A DNA stretch of 38,044 nt from Elusimicrobiota bacterium (GTDB taxonomy: Bacteria > CAYTYR01 > UBA6262), in assembly GCA_003153935.1 (NCBI GenBank), contig PMCA01000029.1, positions 1 to 38,044 of the forward strand, read 5' to 3'. A program made the translations under genes and the position numbers. The notes beneath the pieces were generated by a model that was given only the letters and a program-made list of their open reading frames with translations, ran no database searches and had not been told where the DNA came from. This document shows positions 22,585 through 31,240 of the stretch, piece after piece. Numbering within the stretch: the stretch's first letter is position 1; each line of letters opens with the position of its first letter.

Positions 22585-22611
22585 ATATTGCCGTCCTTAA
22601 GGAGCATAACT

Positions 22612-24996
22612 TTGGCCCCAGAAGATATCGGAAACCACGAAAATATCTGCAGCATGCTGATCGAATTCACCCAGGATATTATAGCGGTCGTCGACCGGAG
22701 CGGTCAGTTCCATTATGTCAACAAGTATGCCGCCGACCAGCTGAATAAAACCATGCAGGATATTATCGGCAAACATTTCTCCGATCTGTTCCCTGCTGCG
22801 GTAGCCCAGCGTATGCTGGCCAACGTGGAAAAAGTGTTTGCTTCCGGAGAACTCTCTTATACCGAGAACCCTCTGGTTTTGAATGACCAGGAGGTTTGGC
22901 AGGGCACCAAGATAATCCCGCTTCGCGATAAAGGCGCCAATTCTGGTTTTGATAGGATCCTGATCGTCTCCAGGGATATTACTACCAATAAACAGATCGA
23001 ACAGTCATTAAAAGAAAATGAAGAGCAGTTCCGGCAGATCATACAGCAGATGCCTTTACCTATAGAGGTAGCCGACCCCTCCGGCACCGCCATTATGGTC
23101 AACAAAGCTTTCCTGGAACTTTTCCAACTCCCCTCCGCTAAATCCATTGTCGGTATTTTTAATTCCTTAAATGAACCGCTTATAAGGGAATTGGGCTTGC
23201 TGGATATAATTAAGGATGTCCGTAACGGGCATTCGGTTTTTATTCCCGAGGTGGCCTTACCCCTGGAAAAAATATCAGACCGTTATGCCGTCAAACGGAT
23301 GGGCACTATTTATCTTGAGATAACCATATTCCCGGTGTTCATGTGTGCGAACGAATTATGGCGCGTGGTTTCAGTCTGGAAGGATATAACCGAACGCAAA
23401 AAAATGGAAGAGTCCCTGCGGCTATCGGAAGAGAAGTACCGTACCTTGCTGCAGGAAGCGACTGAGGTCATCATTTTAGCCGATCCCCTCGGCAACCTGC
23501 TGGAACTTAATAAGAAAGCCGAAATGCTTTTAGGTTATAACCGCGAAGAGATCGTCAGGATGAACTTCTGCAATATTCACCCCCCCAGTGAACATCTAAG
23601 GATAATTGAAACTTTCAAGGAAATAATCCTAAAAGGGTCGGCGCGTATTTACGATACGAGCGTCCTGACCAAGGACGGCAGGATAATTCCCATCGATATT
23701 TCCGGCAGCGTGGTGGAGTACGGCGGCAAAGAGGTGTGCCAGGGGATCTTCCGCGATATGACCGAAAGAAAAGCGGCGGAGTTGAAACTGTCTAAGGTTA
23801 ATGAAGAGCTCAATGCCAGCAATAAGAAGCTAAAACAGATGGCGGTAAAAGATCCCCATACCGGGCTGTTTAACCATAAGTATTTGACTGATATTCTGGA
23901 ACGGGAATTTGTCCGGGCCAAAAAGTACAACCATCCCTTATCATTGATCCTGGTAGATATAGATTATTTTAAGGCGATCAACGATACCTATGGCCACCAC
24001 ACCGGTGACCAGGTACTGAAGCAACTGGCTCACGTAATAAAACGATTGTCCAAAAAGGAACAGTCGGTCATCCGTTATGCCGGCGAAGAATTCCTGATCC
24101 TGGCCCCGGATACTAATAAGGAAGATGCTATAAACCAGGCGCAAAAGCTTTTAGATGAGATAAATATATTCAAGTTCGGCGACCGCAAACGGCCGCTGCG
24201 TTTGAGAGTCAGCATGGCGGTCTGCTCATATCCGGAAGACAAAGTTCTGCAAGGCATGGAACTCCTGGAAAAAGCTGACCTGCTAATCAGTAAGGCTAAA
24301 GAATGGGGCGGTAACCGCGTCTTATCATCCCTGGACCTGCATTTAAAGAAGATCATACCGCTGGTAAAGAATTCCCGTAAACTTAATGTCAAAGAACTCA
24401 AAAAGACTATGGCCAGGCTGAACAAGCGCTCCAACCAGAACGCCGTAGAAGCCATATTCGCCTTCGGCAAGGCCATTGAGCTAAAGGACCATTATACCGG
24501 CGACCACGTGGATAAAACGGTGCATTACGCTACGGAAATAGCCAAAGCCCTGAAATTATCCAGTGAAGATATTATGTTGATCAAACAAGCTTCCATGCTG
24601 CATGACTTGGGTAAGATCGGTATCAGTGACAATGTATTGCTTAAGCCCGCCAAGCTTACCAGCAAGGAATACATGGAGATCAAGAAACACCCGACCATCG
24701 GGGCGGATATTATCCGGCCCATCCACCTGCTGCATGGCATTATCCCGCATATACTGTATCATCATGAAAGATGGGACGGAAAGGGGTATCCCGCTAAATT
24801 GAAAGGGGAAAAGATCCCTCTGGGGGCGCGCATCATCGCCTTAGCCGATGTCTATCAGGCGCTAACCTCTAACCGTCCATACCGCAAAGCTTATGCCAAG
24901 GCGGCAGCGTTGAAGATAATAAAGAGAGAATCCGGTTCTCATTTCGATCCGCGCATCGTTAATGCTTTCCTGCAGGTGCTTAAAAAAATTAAATAA
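22612..24996 (+). CDS. PAS-PAS-PAS-GGDEF-HD-GYP cyclic-di-GMP signalling protein
   Basis: A 794 aa sensor that may both make and degrade cyclic-di-GMP. Three PAS domains lie at about 10-125, 135-265 and 275-400, two ending in the DITxxK and DITERKK-type linkers. A GGDEF domain (about 430-575) follows with DPHTGLFNHKYL, VDIDYFKAIND and a signature loop reading AGEEF in place of GGDEF. A linker and then the HD-GYP domain (about 620-790) has LHDLGKIG, H-H-E-R and GKGYP, with metal-binding residues intact. No transmembrane segment is seen, so it is cytoplasmic. TTG 22612 is chosen because AAGGAG lies 7 nt upstream; a TTG at 22588 would put that site inside the gene. Confidence 0.9.
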   Translation: MAPEDIGNHENICSMLIEFTQDIIAVVDRSGQFHYVNKYAADQLNKTMQDIIGKHFSDLFPAAVAQRMLANVEKVFASGELSYTENPLVLNDQEVWQGTKIIPLRDKGANSGFDRILIVSRDITTNKQIEQSLKENEEQFRQIIQQMPLPIEVADPSGTAIMVNKAFLELFQLPSAKSIVGIFNSLNEPLIRELGLLDIIKDVRNGHSVFIPEVALPLEKISDRYAVKRMGTIYLEITIFPVFMCANELWRVVSVWKDITERKKMEESLRLSEEKYRTLLQEATEVIILADPLGNLLELNKKAEMLLGYNREEIVRMNFCNIHPPSEHLRIIETFKEIILKGSARIYDTSVLTKDGRIIPIDISGSVVEYGGKEVCQGIFRDMTERKAAELKLSKVNEELNASNKKLKQMAVKDPHTGLFNHKYLTDILEREFVRAKKYNHPLSLILVDIDYFKAINDTYGHHTGDQVLKQLAHVIKRLSKKEQSVIRYAGEEFLILAPDTNKEDAINQAQKLLDEINIFKFGDRKRPLRLRVSMAVCSYPEDKVLQGMELLEKADLLISKAKEWGGNRVLSSLDLHLKKIIPLVKNSRKLNVKELKKTMARLNKRSNQNAVEAIFAFGKAIELKDHYTGDHVDKTVHYATEIAKALKLSSEDIMLIKQASMLHDLGKIGISDNVLLKPAKLTSKEYMEIKKHPTIGADIIRPIHLLHGIIPHILYHHERWDGKGYPAKLKGEKIPLGARIIALADVYQALTSNRPYRKAYAKAAALKIIKRESGSHFDPRIVNAFLQVLKKIK

Positions 24997-25010: not shown

Positions 25011-26060
25011 ATGAGCCAGGTATTTTTTCTCCCCATAAAAGAAACCAAAAAGCTGGCCGAGTTGGCGCTTACCGCCGGTTTGGCTAAGATCCTGCGTCCC
25101 GATGACTTTGTTGCCGTTAAATTACACTTCGGTGAAGCAGGCAACATTGGTTTTATCAAACCGCCTCTGGTCAAGCCGGTGGTGGAACTGATCAAGAAGC
25201 AAAAAGCCGTCCCGTTCCTTACTGACGCTTCGACTATTTATAAAGGCCAGCGCTCCGACGCCGTTAATCATTCTCTGATCGCTGCGGAACACGGTTTCAA
25301 CCTGGAGAATTGCGGCGCACCGGTCGTGATCGCCGACGGGTTACGCGGCAACAGTTTTATTCCCGTAGAAATAAAACAAAAACACTTCCAGGAAGTCAAG
25401 ATCGCCCATGACATCCATTACGCGGACAGTATAGTCTGCCTTTCCCACTTCAAGGGGCACGAATTAAGCGGCTTTGGCGGCGCCCTGAAGAACCTGGGTA
25501 TGGGCTGCGGAGCCAAGTCCGGTAAATATGAGATGCATAATAATGTACTGCCAGTCGTGGACCAGGATAAGTGCGAGGGCTGCGCGGCCTGTACCCGCTG
25601 GTGTCCGGCCGAAGCCATCGACCTGGCCAGCGGCAAGGCGGTGATCAACCCGGAGATCTGTATCGGCTGCGCCGATTGCATATTATCCTGTCCCTATCAC
25701 GCCGTCAGCATTAAATGGAACGAATCTTTCACGAATGTGCAGGAGAAAATAGTAGAATATGCCGCCGGCGTCCTGACGAGCAAGAAAAACAAAAGCTTTT
25801 ATCTGAATTACATTAATTTCATCACTCCGCAATGCGATTGTTATCCCACCGGCAACGCTAAACCCCTGATCAAGGATATAGGCATCACCGCTTCCCTGGA
25901 CCCGGTCAGTATCGACCAGGCCAGTGTCGACCTGGTCAATAAAGAAGCGGGGCGGGACCTGTTCCGGGAAGTCTACCCGAATATTAACTGGGCCGATCAG
26001 CTTGGTTACGCCGAGAAACTTGGCCTGGGAGAAAGAAAATACGAACTGGTAAAAATGTAA
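25011..26060 (+). CDS. DUF362 protein with two [4Fe-4S] ferredoxin motifs
   Basis: A 349 aa protein of the DUF362 family, recognisable from VAVKLHFGEAGNIGFI, FLTDASTIYKGQR, FKGHELSGFGGALKNLGMG. After it, at about 185-235, are two [4Fe-4S] motifs: CEGCAACTRWCP and CIGCADCILSCP. It lacks a signal peptide. DUF362 proteins are proposed iron-sulfur electron carriers or reductases of unclear substrate. GGGAG precedes the ATG and the next gene, a radical-SAM enzyme, starts 1 nt after its stop, so it may reduce that enzyme. This pairing is contextual inference. Confidence 0.88.
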   Translation: MSQVFFLPIKETKKLAELALTAGLAKILRPDDFVAVKLHFGEAGNIGFIKPPLVKPVVELIKKQKAVPFLTDASTIYKGQRSDAVNHSLIAAEHGFNLENCGAPVVIADGLRGNSFIPVEIKQKHFQEVKIAHDIHYADSIVCLSHFKGHELSGFGGALKNLGMGCGAKSGKYEMHNNVLPVVDQDKCEGCAACTRWCPAEAIDLASGKAVINPEICIGCADCILSCPYHAVSIKWNESFTNVQEKIVEYAAGVLTSKKNKSFYLNYINFITPQCDCYPTGNAKPLIKDIGITASLDPVSIDQASVDLVNKEAGRDLFREVYPNINWADQLGYAEKLGLGERKYELVKM

Positions 26061-26061
26061 T

Positions 26062-27132
26062 ATGAAACCCCGTCATATATTGTTGATCATAATATTGGCC
26101 ATAGCCGGCTTGGCCGCAGCTCCTAAAGAGGCCATGTTCTACGAGAAACTGGACGGCCAGATGGTTCAATGCCACATCTGCCCCAGGAACTGCACCATTC
26201 CCGGCGGCGCATTGGGATTCTGCCGCGCCCGCCAGAATACCCATGGTACGCTGTACGCCTTAGGCTATGGAGCTCCTTGCGCCGTGCATATCGATCCCGT
26301 AGAGAAAAAACCTTTTTTTAATTTTTATCCCGGCAGTGAAGCTTTTTCCCTGGCCAGCGCCGGATGCAACCTGCGCTGCAAATTCTGCCAGAATTGGGAG
26401 ATATCCCAGGTCTCCCCGCTGGACACTGAAAACTTCTCTTTATCACCACTGGATGTGGTCAATCAGGCGCTGAAGGAAAAATGCCCAATCATCGCCTACA
26501 CCTATTCCGAACCGACCAATTTCTATGAGTACATGCTGGACATCTGCAAGTTGGCCAGGAAAAGGGGGTTAAAGAACGTTTACCACTCCAACGGCTATAT
26601 TAACCCGGAGCCCCTGCAAAACCTCTGCCCATATCTGGATGCCGCCAACATTGACCTGAAAGGTTTCAGCGACAACTACTACCAGAAGATCTGCGGCGCG
26701 CATTTGCAGCCGGTCCTTGATACCCTGGTGATGCTCCATAAGAACGGGGTGTGGCTGGAGATCACCAACATGGTCCTGCCCGGTGAAAACGATAGCCCTG
26801 AAGAGATCAAGCAAATGTGCCAGTGGATAAAAAATAACCTGGGACCGGATGTGCCTTTGCACTTTTCCCGGTTCTATCCTACTTACCAGTTGAAAAACCT
26901 GCCGCCCACACCGATAGAGACGCTGGAAAAGGCCCGGGAAACCGCCTTGGCTGAAGGCTTGCACTATGTTTATATCGGCAACGTAGTGGGGCATCCCGCT
27001 GAGAATACCTATTGCCCTAATTGCCATAATGCCGTGGTAAAACGAACCGGCTATAACGTACTGGAAGTGCATATAACCAAAGGCCTCTGCGATTATTGCC
27101 ATCACCCGATCGCCGGCCGGTGGAACAAATGA
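26062..27132 (+). CDS. amrS: AmmeMemoRadiSam-system radical SAM enzyme with N-terminal hydrophobic segment
   Basis: A 356 aa radical-SAM enzyme of the AmmeMemoRadiSam type. The cysteine set CHICPRNC plus FCRARQN (C37, C40, C44, C53) precedes the cluster motif GCNLRCKFCQNWE (C102, C106, C109). A C-terminal CPNCHN and CDYCHHP pair looks zinc-binding. The family is usually encoded with Memo and AMMECR1 domains but its reaction is unknown. Here residues about 6-20 (ILLIIILAIAGLAAA) form a signal or anchor helix, odd for an oxygen-sensitive iron-sulfur enzyme. A later ATG (codon 25) would remove it, but that lacks a good ribosome site, and the gene start abuts the preceding stop. It overlaps the next gene by 4 nt. 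Confidence 0.88.
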   Translation: MKPRHILLIIILAIAGLAAAPKEAMFYEKLDGQMVQCHICPRNCTIPGGALGFCRARQNTHGTLYALGYGAPCAVHIDPVEKKPFFNFYPGSEAFSLASAGCNLRCKFCQNWEISQVSPLDTENFSLSPLDVVNQALKEKCPIIAYTYSEPTNFYEYMLDICKLARKRGLKNVYHSNGYINPEPLQNLCPYLDAANIDLKGFSDNYYQKICGAHLQPVLDTLVMLHKNGVWLEITNMVLPGENDSPEEIKQMCQWIKNNLGPDVPLHFSRFYPTYQLKNLPPTPIETLEKARETALAEGLHYVYIGNVVGHPAENTYCPNCHNAVVKRTGYNVLEVHITKGLCDYCHHPIAGRWNK

Positions 27133-28598
27133 AACAAAAATATCTTCTTATTTTGGCAACGGCCATTACATTTTTGGCCTGTTATACGAACTATCTACCT
27201 GCTGAAACCCGTCCGCCCCAGGTAGCTGGGGCTTTTTATCCGGCCAGCCAGGCTGAACTTAGCCAAATGATAGACGGGTTCCTGGAACAGGTTCCTGAGC
27301 AAAAGATCGCCGGTAAACTTATCGCTTTGATAGTTCCGCACGCGGGCTACCAGTACAGCGGACAGGTAGCGGCTTATGCCTACAAACTGCTGCAGGGAAG
27401 GCGTTTTGACACGGTCATACTGATCGGTCCCAGTCATCACGCTTACATTAATGTGGCCAGCGTCTGGTGCGATGGAGACTGGGAAACGCCTCTTGGTAAG
27501 GTCCCGGTGGATACCGCCATGGCCAAGGCCATAGCCGGAGAAAATGAATTGTTTTCCTGCTCCGTAGAAGCCCATTGGCCGGAACACTCCCTGGAAGTGC
27601 AACTGCCGTTTTTACAAAAAACATTGAAAAGTTTCAAGATAGTACCCATTTTAGTAAGCGAGCCGACCCTCAAGAACTGCCGCTCCCTGGCCGGGGCGAT
27701 AGTCCGGCAGATGAATTCGGGGAAAAGGGTCCTGCTGGTCATTTCCACCGATATGAGCCATTATTTCCCTTATGCCAAAGCCAGTGAAATGGATCATACG
27801 GCTCTGGCAGTACTGGCCAAACAGGATGCTAAAACTCTGGACGCGCTGATGGCCAAGGGCGCCTGCGAATTTTGCGGCAGCGGCGCCGTACTGACCGCGC
27901 TGGCCGTCGCTGACCTGCTGGCCCCGGTTAAGATCTCTGTGCTGAAATACGCCAACAGCGGGGACGTTACGGGTGACCGGGACCGGGTGGTCGGTTACTC
28001 GGCTACCGCGATTTACCAGGAAGAACCAACAACAAAAAAGGGGCAGAATATGTTATCCAAAACGCAGCAAAAGGAACTGTTAAAGATCGCACGCCAGACC
28101 GTCGAATCCTACGTACAGACAGGGACGGTTCCTGAATTCAAGGTCACCGATAAGGGCCTGCTGGAAAAAAGGGGAGTCTTCGTTACTTTGCACGAAAATG
28201 GGGAATTAAGAGGCTGTATCGGTTATATTATGCCGATAGAAGCCCTTTACCTGGCAGTCAGTAAAATGGCCGTGGAAGCCGCCACCGGTGACCCGCGTTT
28301 CAGCCCGGTAAAACCAGCCGAACTGCCACAGCTGGAAATTGAGATATCTGTCCTGAGCGTGCCGGTAAGTATCAATAACCCGGAAGAAATTGTCATGGGA
28401 ACGCATGGCGTGATCGTCAGGAAAGGCGGGCGGGGCGGGGTATTCCTGCCTCAGGTAGCCACTGAAACCGGCTGGACCAGGGAGCAGTTCCTGGATGAAC
28501 TCTGTTCGCAGAAAGCCGGTCTGCCGGCCGACGCCTGGAAAAATAAGGACTGTGAACTTTATACTTTCAGCGCCCAGGTATTCGGCGAAAAAGAATAA
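27129..28598 (+). CDS. Exported Memo-AMMECR1 fusion (AmmeMemoRadiSam proteins B and A)
   Basis: A 489 aa fusion. After a signal-peptide-like start (about 4-26, LLILATAITFLACYTNYLPA) comes a Memo domain (about 28-295) with VPHAGYQYSGQVAAYAY (His71), GPSHH (103-104), DMSHY and FCGSG (C249), the residues that line the Memo pocket. From about 308 an AMMECR1 domain follows with LRGCIGYI, ATGDPRFSPV and the C-terminal SQKAGLPADAW. ATG 27129 is chosen because it makes an ATGA overlap with the preceding stop and starts at the basic n-region. Domain functions are unsettled. The export signal is notable since Memo and AMMECR1 are generally cytoplasmic. Confidence 0.88.
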   Translation: MKQKYLLILATAITFLACYTNYLPAETRPPQVAGAFYPASQAELSQMIDGFLEQVPEQKIAGKLIALIVPHAGYQYSGQVAAYAYKLLQGRRFDTVILIGPSHHAYINVASVWCDGDWETPLGKVPVDTAMAKAIAGENELFSCSVEAHWPEHSLEVQLPFLQKTLKSFKIVPILVSEPTLKNCRSLAGAIVRQMNSGKRVLLVISTDMSHYFPYAKASEMDHTALAVLAKQDAKTLDALMAKGACEFCGSGAVLTALAVADLLAPVKISVLKYANSGDVTGDRDRVVGYSATAIYQEEPTTKKGQNMLSKTQQKELLKIARQTVESYVQTGTVPEFKVTDKGLLEKRGVFVTLHENGELRGCIGYIMPIEALYLAVSKMAVEAATGDPRFSPVKPAELPQLEIEISVLSVPVSINNPEEIVMGTHGVIVRKGGRGGVFLPQVATETGWTREQFLDELCSQKAGLPADAWKNKDCELYTFSAQVFGEKE

Positions 28599-29257
28599 TG
28601 ACACCCCTGGCGCAGGAATCATTAAGAATATTGGCCACAGGGTTTACAGTGGGATTCGGTCCCTGCCTGGCCTTCTGCGCGCCGATAGTTCTGCCCATTA
28701 TCGCCACCACGGCCGACAACCATCGTCAAGGATTAACAGCAGCCCTGGTCTTTTCACTGGGTAGGGCTCTATCTTATATTTTCCTGGGATTACTGGCCGG
28801 CTGGTCCATCCGGTTATTAGACCCGGTCTTGAATGAACCCGGATGGAAACTTTTCTTCTCCCTGGCCAGTGGCAGCTTACTACTCCTGTTCGGCGGGTTG
28901 ATCCTGCTGGGTAAAGACACTTCTCTCCGGTATTGCCGGAATTTTCATAAATATTTTGTTGACAAAAGACAACCAAGTATGTTTATCTTAGGTATATTGA
29001 TCGGCTTTACTCCCTGCCTGCCGTTGTTGGGGATCTTGACGTACATTGCCAACCGGGCCGCCAACGCCTGGCAAGGAGCGGTTATGGGAGCTAGTTTCGG
29101 TTTGGGAACTTTGGTCTCTCCTTTGCTGCTGGCGGGAATGCTGGCGGGAGCGGTACCCGGCAAGCTGGACCGGCTGGCCAGAATACAAAAACTGTTCAAC
29201 CAATTATGCGCTTTGCTGTTGATCCTTTGGGGAATCCTTTTATTACTAAGAAGATAA
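28598..29257 (+). CDS. CcdA/DsbD-like (TauE/SafE-type) membrane protein
   Basis: A 219 aa protein of about six transmembrane helices arranged as two similar halves. Each half begins with a Cys-Pro type motif: FGPCLAFCAPIVLPII (C23, C27) and IGFTPCLPLLGIL (C140). This matches CcdA and the DsbD membrane domain, which carry reducing electrons across the membrane through a pair of intramembrane cysteines. The protein overlaps the Memo-AMMECR1 gene by 1 nt. It could supply thiol reduction to the exported proteins upstream; this is inference. Confidence 0.85.
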   Translation: MTPLAQESLRILATGFTVGFGPCLAFCAPIVLPIIATTADNHRQGLTAALVFSLGRALSYIFLGLLAGWSIRLLDPVLNEPGWKLFFSLASGSLLLLFGGLILLGKDTSLRYCRNFHKYFVDKRQPSMFILGILIGFTPCLPLLGILTYIANRAANAWQGAVMGASFGLGTLVSPLLLAGMLAGAVPGKLDRLARIQKLFNQLCALLLILWGILLLLRR

Positions 29258-29279: not shown

Positions 29280-30527
29280 ATGAGTGACAGGATAATCCTG
29301 AATGTGTGGTTTATTTCGAGCAACAACAGCTATATGAACGATGTTGTCACTTTGTTCGTTGACTTGTTCGAGAAGGACCACCCCCAGATAAAGATCAACC
29401 TGGAGCTGAAGAACTGGAACACCGTCTGGGAGGAATTGCTCGGGGTTAAGAGCAGTACCCACGCCCCGGACGTGGTGCAGATAGGTTCCACCTGGGTCGG
29501 GTACTTAGCGCAGCAGGGGTACCTCCTGGGCCTGAACGACAAGATCGCGGATGTAGGAGGCGCGGAAGCTTTCGACAATTCGATCCTCAAAACCTGTATC
29601 TCTCCCGAAAGCGGAGTGATCAGCGCCCTGCCCTGGTTTATCGACGCCCGCGGTATGTACTACCGGGAAGATATATTGCAGAAATGCAATTTATCCGTCA
29701 AGGATATCGCCACCTGGGATTCTTTCCTGCAGTCCAGCAAGATAATAAATAATGTGGAAGTTGGCGGCAAAAAAGTACCGGCCCTGGGCATGGGGGCGGG
29801 ACTGAAAACGGGTGAACTTGTACACAACGTCATGCCTTTTGTCTGGGCCGCCGGCGGCGACATCTATCACGAGGCGACCAAGGAAGTGGTCATTAACAGC
29901 GAGGAATCGCTCAAGGGCCTGGAATTTTATTTCAGCCTTTTTAGCCAGGGATTGATCCCAGTGCATTGTGTCGGCCTGGACCCGGCCCAGCTCAGCGTGG
30001 AATATTTCCAAGGGGCCTACAGTATTTGCGTCAGTAACGTGATCGACGTCTTCAGCATGGCTTACACCGAATCATTCTACAATATCGATATCGCCAAGCA
30101 CTGCCTGGCTACCAGATTCCCGGCGGGGCCCAAAGGCAGTTTTTCCTTTGCCGGGGGCAGCGCCTTAGGCATCATGCGCAACTCTATCTACCAGCGCGAA
30201 GCCTGGGAATTTCTGAAGTTCTTGAGCGGCGTGGAAGCGCAAATTTATTACGCCAAATCCTGCGGCACCATACCGGCGGTCAAGAAAGCTTTCCATACCC
30301 AGTATTTCCTGACCAATCCCCGGTTCGTGGCCTTTACCGAGATATTGAAAACGGTCCGGTATTACCCGGTGCTGAGCCAGTGGGGACGCATCGAAGAGAC
30401 CCTGGTCAACCGCCTGTTTGAGATCTACATGGACATCGGCCAGAATGAGGGCAAGTGCGACCTTAACCTCCTGCGCAAACAGATGAACCGCGCTGCTGTG
30501 GAGATAAAAGAAATCCTATCGACCTGA
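29280..30527 (+). CDS. Solute-binding-fold protein (ABC family 1 type) without signal peptide
   Basis: A 415 aa protein resembling sugar-type extracellular solute-binding proteins: VWFISSNNSYMNDV, FEKDHPQIKINLEL, WEELLGVKSSTHAPDVVQIGSTW, GYLLGLND, PWFIDARGMYYREDIL, and the C-terminal-lobe FSFAGGSALGIM. It has no signal peptide or lipobox: the fold starts within a few residues of the ATG at 29280, which has a strong GGAGGG site. Upstream, a stop codon closes the frame near 29247. No permease or ATPase gene is adjacent. It is either a cytosolic derivative or a fragment of a larger arrangement. It follows the membrane gene by 22 nt. Confidence 0.8.
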   Translation: MSDRIILNVWFISSNNSYMNDVVTLFVDLFEKDHPQIKINLELKNWNTVWEELLGVKSSTHAPDVVQIGSTWVGYLAQQGYLLGLNDKIADVGGAEAFDNSILKTCISPESGVISALPWFIDARGMYYREDILQKCNLSVKDIATWDSFLQSSKIINNVEVGGKKVPALGMGAGLKTGELVHNVMPFVWAAGGDIYHEATKEVVINSEESLKGLEFYFSLFSQGLIPVHCVGLDPAQLSVEYFQGAYSICVSNVIDVFSMAYTESFYNIDIAKHCLATRFPAGPKGSFSFAGGSALGIMRNSIYQREAWEFLKFLSGVEAQIYYAKSCGTIPAVKKAFHTQYFLTNPRFVAFTEILKTVRYYPVLSQWGRIEETLVNRLFEIYMDIGQNEGKCDLNLLRKQMNRAAVEIKEILST

Positions 30528-31240
30528 TGAAAAACAAGAGCCTGGTAAAATTCATCCTGGGGTTATTGCTGATACCCGCAGTATTAGCCTGCTTCCATTC
30601 TTTTCTCGCGCAATTGGGCGCTTTCACCATGAACAGTGGCAGCGTCCAATATTGTTTTTTCGGCGGTTTCCTGACCTACCTGGCTTTTCAGCTGGCTTTT
30701 TTCAAACCTATCCGCACTTATGTTTTCGGCCACGAATTGACTCATGCTCTCTGGGCCATGATGTTCGGCGGCCGAGTCAAGGATTTCACCGTGCGCGCCG
30801 CCAGCGGCCGCGTCGTCCTGACCAAGACAAATTTCCTGATCAACCTGGCCCCGTATTTCTTCCCTTTATACACTTTTCTGGTGGTACTGGTTTACTTTCT
30901 TCTTAAGGCTTTCGACCGGGCCGACCAGTTCTTTTTGTACATAATTTTTGCCATCGGTTTTACTTTTTCCTTCCACCTGGCGCTGCTCATTTACGCCTTC
31001 AGCCTGGGCCAATCGGACATCAAGAAAACAGGGCGTCTTTTTTCCTTGACTTTGATCATCCTTTTTAATATTATAGTTGCTACTTTGATACTTAAACTGA
31101 TGGTACCGGAGATCATAGACCTGCGGTTATTTCTGCAGTCCAGCCTGGCCACCTGCGGGGCCATCTGGCTCTGGCTCTGGCAGATGACGATCGAATTCAA
31201 AGACCTCATTTTTAAAGACGTCCACCTATGGAAAATCTGA
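30527..31240 (+). CDS. M50-like membrane zinc metalloprotease
   Basis: A 237 aa protein with about six hydrophobic helices. The third contains GHELTHALW, giving the HExxH zinc motif at 69-73 (H69, E70, H73), and a later segment INLAPYFFPLYTF matches the second metal-side region of M50-type proteases. The pattern is of a site-2-protease-like enzyme cleaving within membranes, without PDZ domain. It overlaps the solute-binding gene by 1 nt and recX by 13 nt, so it is in the same transcript. Substrate unknown. Confidence 0.7.
   Translation: MKNKSLVKFILGLLLIPAVLACFHSFLAQLGAFTMNSGSVQYCFFGGFLTYLAFQLAFFKPIRTYVFGHELTHALWAMMFGGRVKDFTVRAASGRVVLTKTNFLINLAPYFFPLYTFLVVLVYFLLKAFDRADQFFLYIIFAIGFTFSFHLALLIYAFSLGQSDIKKTGRLFSLTLIILFNIIVATLILKLMVPEIIDLRLFLQSSLATCGAIWLWLWQMTIEFKDLIFKDVHLWKI

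Follow-up and report, generated by a model that had tools for sequence, protein, structure and literature searches.

Organization of the AmmeMemoRadiSam locus

We analyzed a 38,044-nucleotide (nt) stretch of the Elusimicrobiota contig PMCA01000029.1, referred to as a whole as the window, in which positions 25011-29257 hold a four-gene cluster for a DUF362 protein, a radical S-adenosylmethionine (SAM) enzyme, a fusion of the Memo and AMMECR1 domains, and a CcdA/DsbD-like membrane protein (Table 1). The gene order given in a first-pass annotation of this DNA agrees with the sequence in both coordinates and spacing: a gap of 1 nt separates the DUF362 gene from the radical-SAM gene, which overlaps the Memo-AMMECR1 gene by 4 nt (ATGA), and the latter overlaps the DsbD-like gene by 1 nt (TAATG). 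All four family assignments made there are supported by curated models, with scores well over the cut-offs. The cluster contains the three domains of AmmeMemoRadiSam (TIGR04335/04336/04337; amrA, amrB, amrS), each above its curated cut-off, and keeps the metal-site and CX3CX2C residues of that system. The trio is a known co-occurring set of unknown function with relatives among human proteins (MEMO1 and AMMECR1), and it has until now been treated as belonging to the cell interior. In contrast, the signals or anchors of the window set are predicted to place it outside the cytosol, in the company of DUF362 and CcdA-like partners. Judged from the sequences described below, what is new here appears to be a large extracytoplasmic branch of the known trio.

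Table 1 Features of the four-gene cluster and its flanking genes.
Feature	Position	Strand	Evidence or remark
DUF362 protein with two ferredoxin-type [4Fe-4S] motifs; lacks a signal peptide, predicted on the cytosolic face	25011..26060	+	PF04015 159 bits, Fer4 families
First [4Fe-4S] motif, CEGCAACTRWCP	25572..25607	+	sequence
Second [4Fe-4S] motif, CIGCADCILSCP	25659..25694	+	sequence
AmmeMemoRadiSam radical-SAM enzyme (amrS-type), putative exported or anchored form	26062..27132	+	TIGR04337 395 bits (cut-off 220)
Hydrophobic N-terminal segment of the radical-SAM protein, residues 5-21, N-in/C-out charge bias (+3 / -1)	26074..26124	+	
CX3CX2C radical-SAM cluster motif (C102, C106, C109)	26365..26388	+	invariant in 49 homologues
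Memo-AMMECR1 fusion (amrB-amrA), signal or lipoprotein-like N-terminus	27129..28598	+	TIGR04336 286 bits (cut-off 26), TIGR04335 185 bits (cut-off 99), PF01875, PF01871
Memo-AMMECR1 signal sequence, ending in a marginal lipobox (FLAC, C18)	27129..27182	+	
Memo domain; metal-site residues H71, H103, C249, plus D208, H211	27216..28004	+	
AMMECR1 domain, LRGCIG motif	28080..28583	+	PF01871 194 bits
CcdA/DsbD-like membrane protein; each repeat has one cysteine, C23 (GPCxxxC) and C140 (PCxP)	28598..29257	+	DsbD_2 PF13386 90 bits (cut-off 24.9), PF02683 50 bits
PAS-GGDEF-HD protein, 14 nt upstream of the DUF362 gene	22588..24996	+	same order in G002, G004
Solute-binding-protein-like gene, 22 nt downstream of the DsbD-like gene	29280..30527	+	conserved neighbour within the phylum only

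Hydrophobic N-termini of the window proteins

The AlphaFold model of the window radical-SAM protein reaches predicted local distance difference test (pLDDT) values of 97-98 from about residue 21 on (94.8 overall), and residues 1-20 form a low-confidence appendage outside the fold (pLDDT blocks of 51 and 59). By rule-based analysis this N-terminus has a hydropathy of 3.1 and a charge distribution of +3/-1. The radical-SAM enzyme carries a hydrophobic extension in five of five genomes of the phylum, although the sequences have diverged. The genome of the window (1.75 Mb, 95% complete) encodes a second TIGR04337 enzyme (L008), which begins directly at the domain, and a second, solo Memo without a signal (L003); the window AMMECR1 is the only one in this genome. 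Each of the five phylum genomes has one extended and one plain radical-SAM enzyme, which indicates that the version of exported appearance has been maintained as a form of its own. The Memo-AMMECR1 set is present in four of the five. As for the lipobox region of the fusion, marginal in the window, it reads LFASC, LSASC and LIASC in the relatives G002, G003 and G004, the last of which matches the lipobox consensus. The hydrophobic starts that the first-pass annotation had pointed out on both proteins are, by the model, the paralogues and the phylum comparison, genuine additions to the domains. Export as a trait, nevertheless, is predicted for the window set and not for the second radical-SAM enzyme and the solo Memo of the same genome, which are cytosolic.

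These comparisons bear on the reading that the window encodes an ordinary cytosolic AmmeMemoRadiSam set, with hydrophobic starts produced by miscalled start codons or by chance. Cytosolic members of the family are indeed common, and one of them lies in the same genome; the extensions, however, recur throughout the phylum with diverged sequences, their reading frames are open and begin with ATG, Tat motifs on homologues lie far over background (see below), and the Memo partners have signals of their own. We therefore consider such a set very improbable. A start-site miscall was rejected on the presence of the extension in all five genomes and on its appearance as an appendage in the model.

Export signals across related loci

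A scan of genome contigs yielded a first set of 80 loci, spread over many phyla of bacteria and including some archaea. Because this set is biased towards the query, a second one was taken from 290 genomes of a wider neighbourhood, 201 of which hold the family; 90 loci, among the better-scoring matches, were read. N-termini were classed by rule and then by eye. Signals for twin-arginine translocation (Tat) of the SRREFLK kind were found on 44 of the 80 radical-SAM proteins of the first set, and cytosolic members begin directly at the domain and fall mostly into separate tree groups. A strict Tat motif followed by a hydrophobic stretch is present in 31 of 84 radical-SAM open reading frames (ORFs), compared with 3 of 572 other ORFs at the same loci, two of these three being DUF362 partners. 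Among the N-termini of the general secretory (Sec) or anchor type, 25 of 28 show an N-in/C-out charge bias, with three ties and none reversed. A consistent lack of the hydrophobic segment among homologues, named in the first-pass annotation as the outcome that would speak against it, did not occur, as Tat- or Sec-type signals lie on the radical-SAM proteins of many phyla.

The exported appearance of the Memo-AMMECR1 fusion is likewise borne out by signals on its counterparts at related loci in many phyla. Where an exported radical-SAM protein is linked to a Memo, the Memo is exported in 40 cases and signal-less in none; for signal-less radical-SAM proteins, the linked Memo is exported in 8 and signal-less in 7 (Fisher p 3e-5 for the whole table). 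In five of these eight mixed pairs the anchor is encoded by a separate small upstream ORF. At another locus (L132:1369-4038), radical-SAM, Memo, and AMMECR1 form one reading frame of 890 residues, apparently cytosolic.

Active sites and fold

The catalytic residues are intact in the exported forms. MEMO1 binds iron or copper via H49, H81, and C244 (PMC11081632), the expected counterparts of which in the window Memo are H71, H103, and C249; the equivalence of the cysteine was assigned by motif and position, as the PDB alignment stopped at residue 222. The window Memo was aligned with human MEMO1 (3bcz, 7kq8, 7l5c) over residues 30-222 (E 4e-20), with conserved His-His-Cys residues, and all 40 exported Memo domains keep these metal-site residues in their aligned parts. 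Unlike human MEMO1, the window Memo is predicted to be exported, fused to AMMECR1, and probably lipid-anchored. The CX3CX2C motif, invariant in the 49 homologues, is also found in all exported members of the second set, which was based on hidden Markov models.

The closest solved fold to the window radical-SAM model is that of the pyruvate formate-lyase activating enzyme (3cb8, 3c8f; E 7e-14, TM-score 0.82 on target), which suggests a protein or peptide substrate. The likeness is one of fold, since the score of 59 bits against the curated family (PFLA TIGR02493) lies far below the cut-off of 231.75. The window enzyme differs from the activating enzyme by its 16% identity, its extra cysteine-rich N- and C-terminal elements, and its membrane anchor.

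Signal type, Tat machinery, and the CcdA-like partner

The Tat pathway exports folded, cofactor-loaded proteins, and the Sec pathway unfolded ones. The TatC gene is present in 57 of 62 genomes with Tat-type enzymes versus 7 of 32 with Sec-type enzymes (both sets; p 7e-12), and in the second set alone in 17 of 18 versus 1 of 12 (p 2.5e-6); these raw p-values overstate independence, because the Sec-type members cluster on the tree. The proper RR motif is missing from L179, a Tat call without TatC. In four loci (L042, L069, L079, and L175), which include contigs assigned to two archaeal lineages, the TatC gene lies next to the Tat-type radical-SAM gene. TatC is absent from five of five genomes of the window's phylum, and the window radical-SAM protein itself was rejected as a Tat substrate for this reason and for want of an RR motif. 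The simplest reading of this pattern is that selection keeps the radical-SAM enzyme outside and that the export route shifts with the machinery the cell has.

The CcdA-like gene follows the same division. It adjoins 18 of 29 Sec-type loci versus 0 of 62 Tat-type loci, so that the synteny proposed by the first-pass annotation stands for the Sec-type form and fails for the exported system in general. The two cysteines of the window protein (C23 and C140) are conserved in the partner set, and a PDB sequence search with this protein gave no match. Like the CcdA/DsbD thiol electron transporters, it belongs by prediction to the DsbD_2/DsbD_TM membrane proteins, and each of its three-helix repeats has one conserved cysteine. 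Unlike in those systems, no thioredoxin-like receiving domain was found in the window cluster, and the partner appears to be the exported radical-SAM enzyme. CcdA and the radical-SAM enzyme share one reading frame in L075. A CcdA-matching gene, which has homologues in L051, L059, L062, and L088, lies directly upstream in L050, where its product extends into a flavin mononucleotide (FMN)-binding and a NapH-like ferredoxin domain.

The synteny with DUF362, also proposed earlier, holds for the window's own family and for 12 Tat-type loci, and several of the copies at Tat-type loci carry Tat signals of their own. DUF362 is a family of unknown function that belongs to Pfam clan CL0471 in common with DUF2088/LarA (PMC11770544); the window copy matches PF04015 and adds a two-cluster ferredoxin insertion.

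Both partners could instead be passengers of a long mixed operon around an extracytoplasmic trio. In keeping with this, the unit runs in both directions into unrelated genes (for the PAS-GGDEF-HD, solute-binding, and M50-like proteins), and the presence of CcdA is clustered on the tree. However, Sec-type enzymes of several phyla have the CcdA-like gene as a neighbour, and it also occurs in fusions with FMN-binding and NapH-like domains as well as with the radical-SAM enzyme, and DUF362 recurs in the 12 Tat-type loci with a different sequence. We regard a passenger role of the two genes as quite unlikely.

Other partners of the putative exported branch

A membrane protein of about 720 residues that includes a spermidine-synthase-like domain is encoded next to 44 of 91 exported loci, about half of them, versus 4 of 75 signal-less ones, the flanks of the second set being partly short. 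It is found at L070:3682-5832 and in 34 other first-set loci, often between the Memo-AMMECR1 and Tat-type radical-SAM genes. A copy exists elsewhere in the genome in five of five phylum genomes, that of the window's genome being unlinked (G000:C12:121247-123358). A role as a true aminopropyltransferase seems doubtful, as inspection of L070 by eye suggests that other residues stand in place of the usual DSxDP-like motif.

The stretch that links the Tat signal to the radical-SAM domain contains a CXXCH motif in five loci (L048, L072, L094, L114, and L188), the first four of which lie in one supported clade. By its sequence the motif is heme-c-like and could instead bind zinc. Covalent attachment of heme c takes place only outside the cytosol.

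By eye, a Mut7-C-like small protein is encoded next to or near the exported radical-SAM gene in L020:2162-2647, L019:2453-2914, and L049:2-463, and an aldehyde ferredoxin oxidoreductase-like gene lies near the Tat-type set in three loci of Desulfobacterales (L074, L081, and L083). On a plasmid of Ideonella dechloratans (L217), a cytosolic-type amrB-amrS pair has as neighbours an arsenic resistance cluster and the gene for a TauE/SafE transporter.

A proposed extracytoplasmic pathway

From the gene identities, the signals with their charge bias, the intact active-site residues, and the patterns linking signal type to TatC and to CcdA, all of them read at the sequence level, we infer a location outside the cytosol, a route for electrons, cluster assembly outside, and joint action of the two enzymes. 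The reading that we favor, and hold to be probable, is that the window encodes an outward-facing radical-SAM/Memo/AMMECR1 system, in which the CcdA-like protein keeps cysteines, cluster, and metal reduced where Tat cannot export a pre-loaded enzyme. The N-terminal Sec-type anchor would hold the radical-SAM enzyme on the outer face of the cytoplasmic membrane, and the Memo-AMMECR1 fusion, in which the His-His-Cys metal site is intact, would be secreted as its lipoprotein-like partner. The two may act successively on a common substrate outside the cytosol. In Tat-bearing lineages, the radical-SAM enzyme would be exported folded with its cluster already loaded. As the window lineage lacks Tat, its enzyme is expected to cross the membrane unfolded. 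After export by Sec, a radical-SAM enzyme would need to gain or retain its cluster outside the cytosol, where some dozen conserved cysteines would be open to oxidation. The CcdA-like protein may deliver thiol reducing power across the membrane and thereby protect the cysteines and the cluster, and probably the metal site of Memo as well, from oxidation. Since its gene lies beside Sec-type and not Tat-type enzymes, such a protective thiol role would fit better than that of a general catalytic electron donor. More tentatively, DUF362 with its two ferredoxin clusters might feed electrons from the cytosolic side. The scheme would agree with the envelope redox or modification pathway suggested by the first-pass annotation.

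Several observations weigh against an outward-facing enzyme. We know of no SAM outside the cytosol, and a Sec-exported [4Fe-4S] enzyme would require cluster assembly there, for which no dedicated factor was found. In some Bacteroidales (L080, L086, and the cultured Segatella hominis) an exported Memo-AMMECR1 is paired with a signal-less radical-SAM protein. In ten loci (L061, L098, L152, L155, L158, L160, L161, L163, L165, and L167), which fall in the clade with CcdA-type partners, the radical-SAM gene is broken into two ORFs, each time at the same place. The first, of 70-90 residues, contains a transmembrane segment and has at its end an EAxYY segment that forms a core strand in the modelled radical-SAM domain; the second, the core ORF, begins with the first CxxC and bears no signal. 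A cytosolic core would make the joining of split anchor and core simplest. The Sec-type loci L046, L157, L177, L182, and L186 have adequate flanks and no adjacent CcdA gene. Furthermore, the Sec-type members are clustered, with about five changes on the best tree and one forced by well-supported branches, and tree-aware tests of the Sec/TatC and Sec/CcdA links were not significant, there being too few independent changes. A programmed frameshift in the split genes was considered and is unlikely, given that the relative frame varies (0, 1, 2) and that several overlaps are ATGA.

The absence of known SAM outside, the anchor-split clade with its signal-less cores beside exported Memo proteins, the Bacteroidales pairs, and the signal-less DUF362 of the window would all suit an arrangement divided by the membrane, in which the N-terminal segment only tethers the enzyme, the radical-SAM domain stays in the cytosol with SAM and ferredoxin, and Memo-AMMECR1 alone acts beyond the membrane, on a product that crosses it or is linked to lipid. 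Against such a division stand the 44 homologues with Tat signals, the association of these signals with TatC, the lack of any Sec-type N-terminus of N-out/C-in charge bias, and the CXXCH motifs. A further argument is the C-terminal fusion to CcdA in L075, since a homologous six-helix fold, by analogy with DsbD/CcdA topology, would put the fusion outside. We think the divided arrangement unlikely and retain the outward-facing system as the favored reading.

To our knowledge, radical-SAM enzymes have been treated as cytosolic, as SAM, the low-potential reductant, and [4Fe-4S] assembly are all cytosolic, and a literature search of limited scope found no published description of an exported one. 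We see evenly balanced prospects for a broader proposal, namely a complete radical-SAM pathway outside the cytosol in many bacterial phyla and some archaea, with a dedicated trans-membrane electron supply (CcdA-like, CcdA-FMN-NapH, heme-c-like motifs) and possibly with SAM handling by the polytopic spermidine-synthase-like protein. If true, it would have to be asked how a widely distributed exported branch obtains its SAM and electrons, and the substrate of AmmeMemoRadiSam/MEMO1/AMMECR1, unknown even in humans, would be narrowed in these organisms to one accessible at the membrane surface. The Sec/Tat/CcdA pattern provides specific predictions, testable in laboratory strains.

Flanking genes

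The four-gene cluster is probably part of a longer unit, with the PAS-GGDEF-HD gene upstream and the solute-binding-protein gene downstream (Table 1). The former is possibly in the same transcription unit, which implies no role for its product. An M50-like membrane protein with a HELTHALW / HELSHALW motif is encoded near the exported set at window positions 30527-31240, and another (L023:3685-4368) directly adjoins the cytosolic radical-SAM gene in G001.

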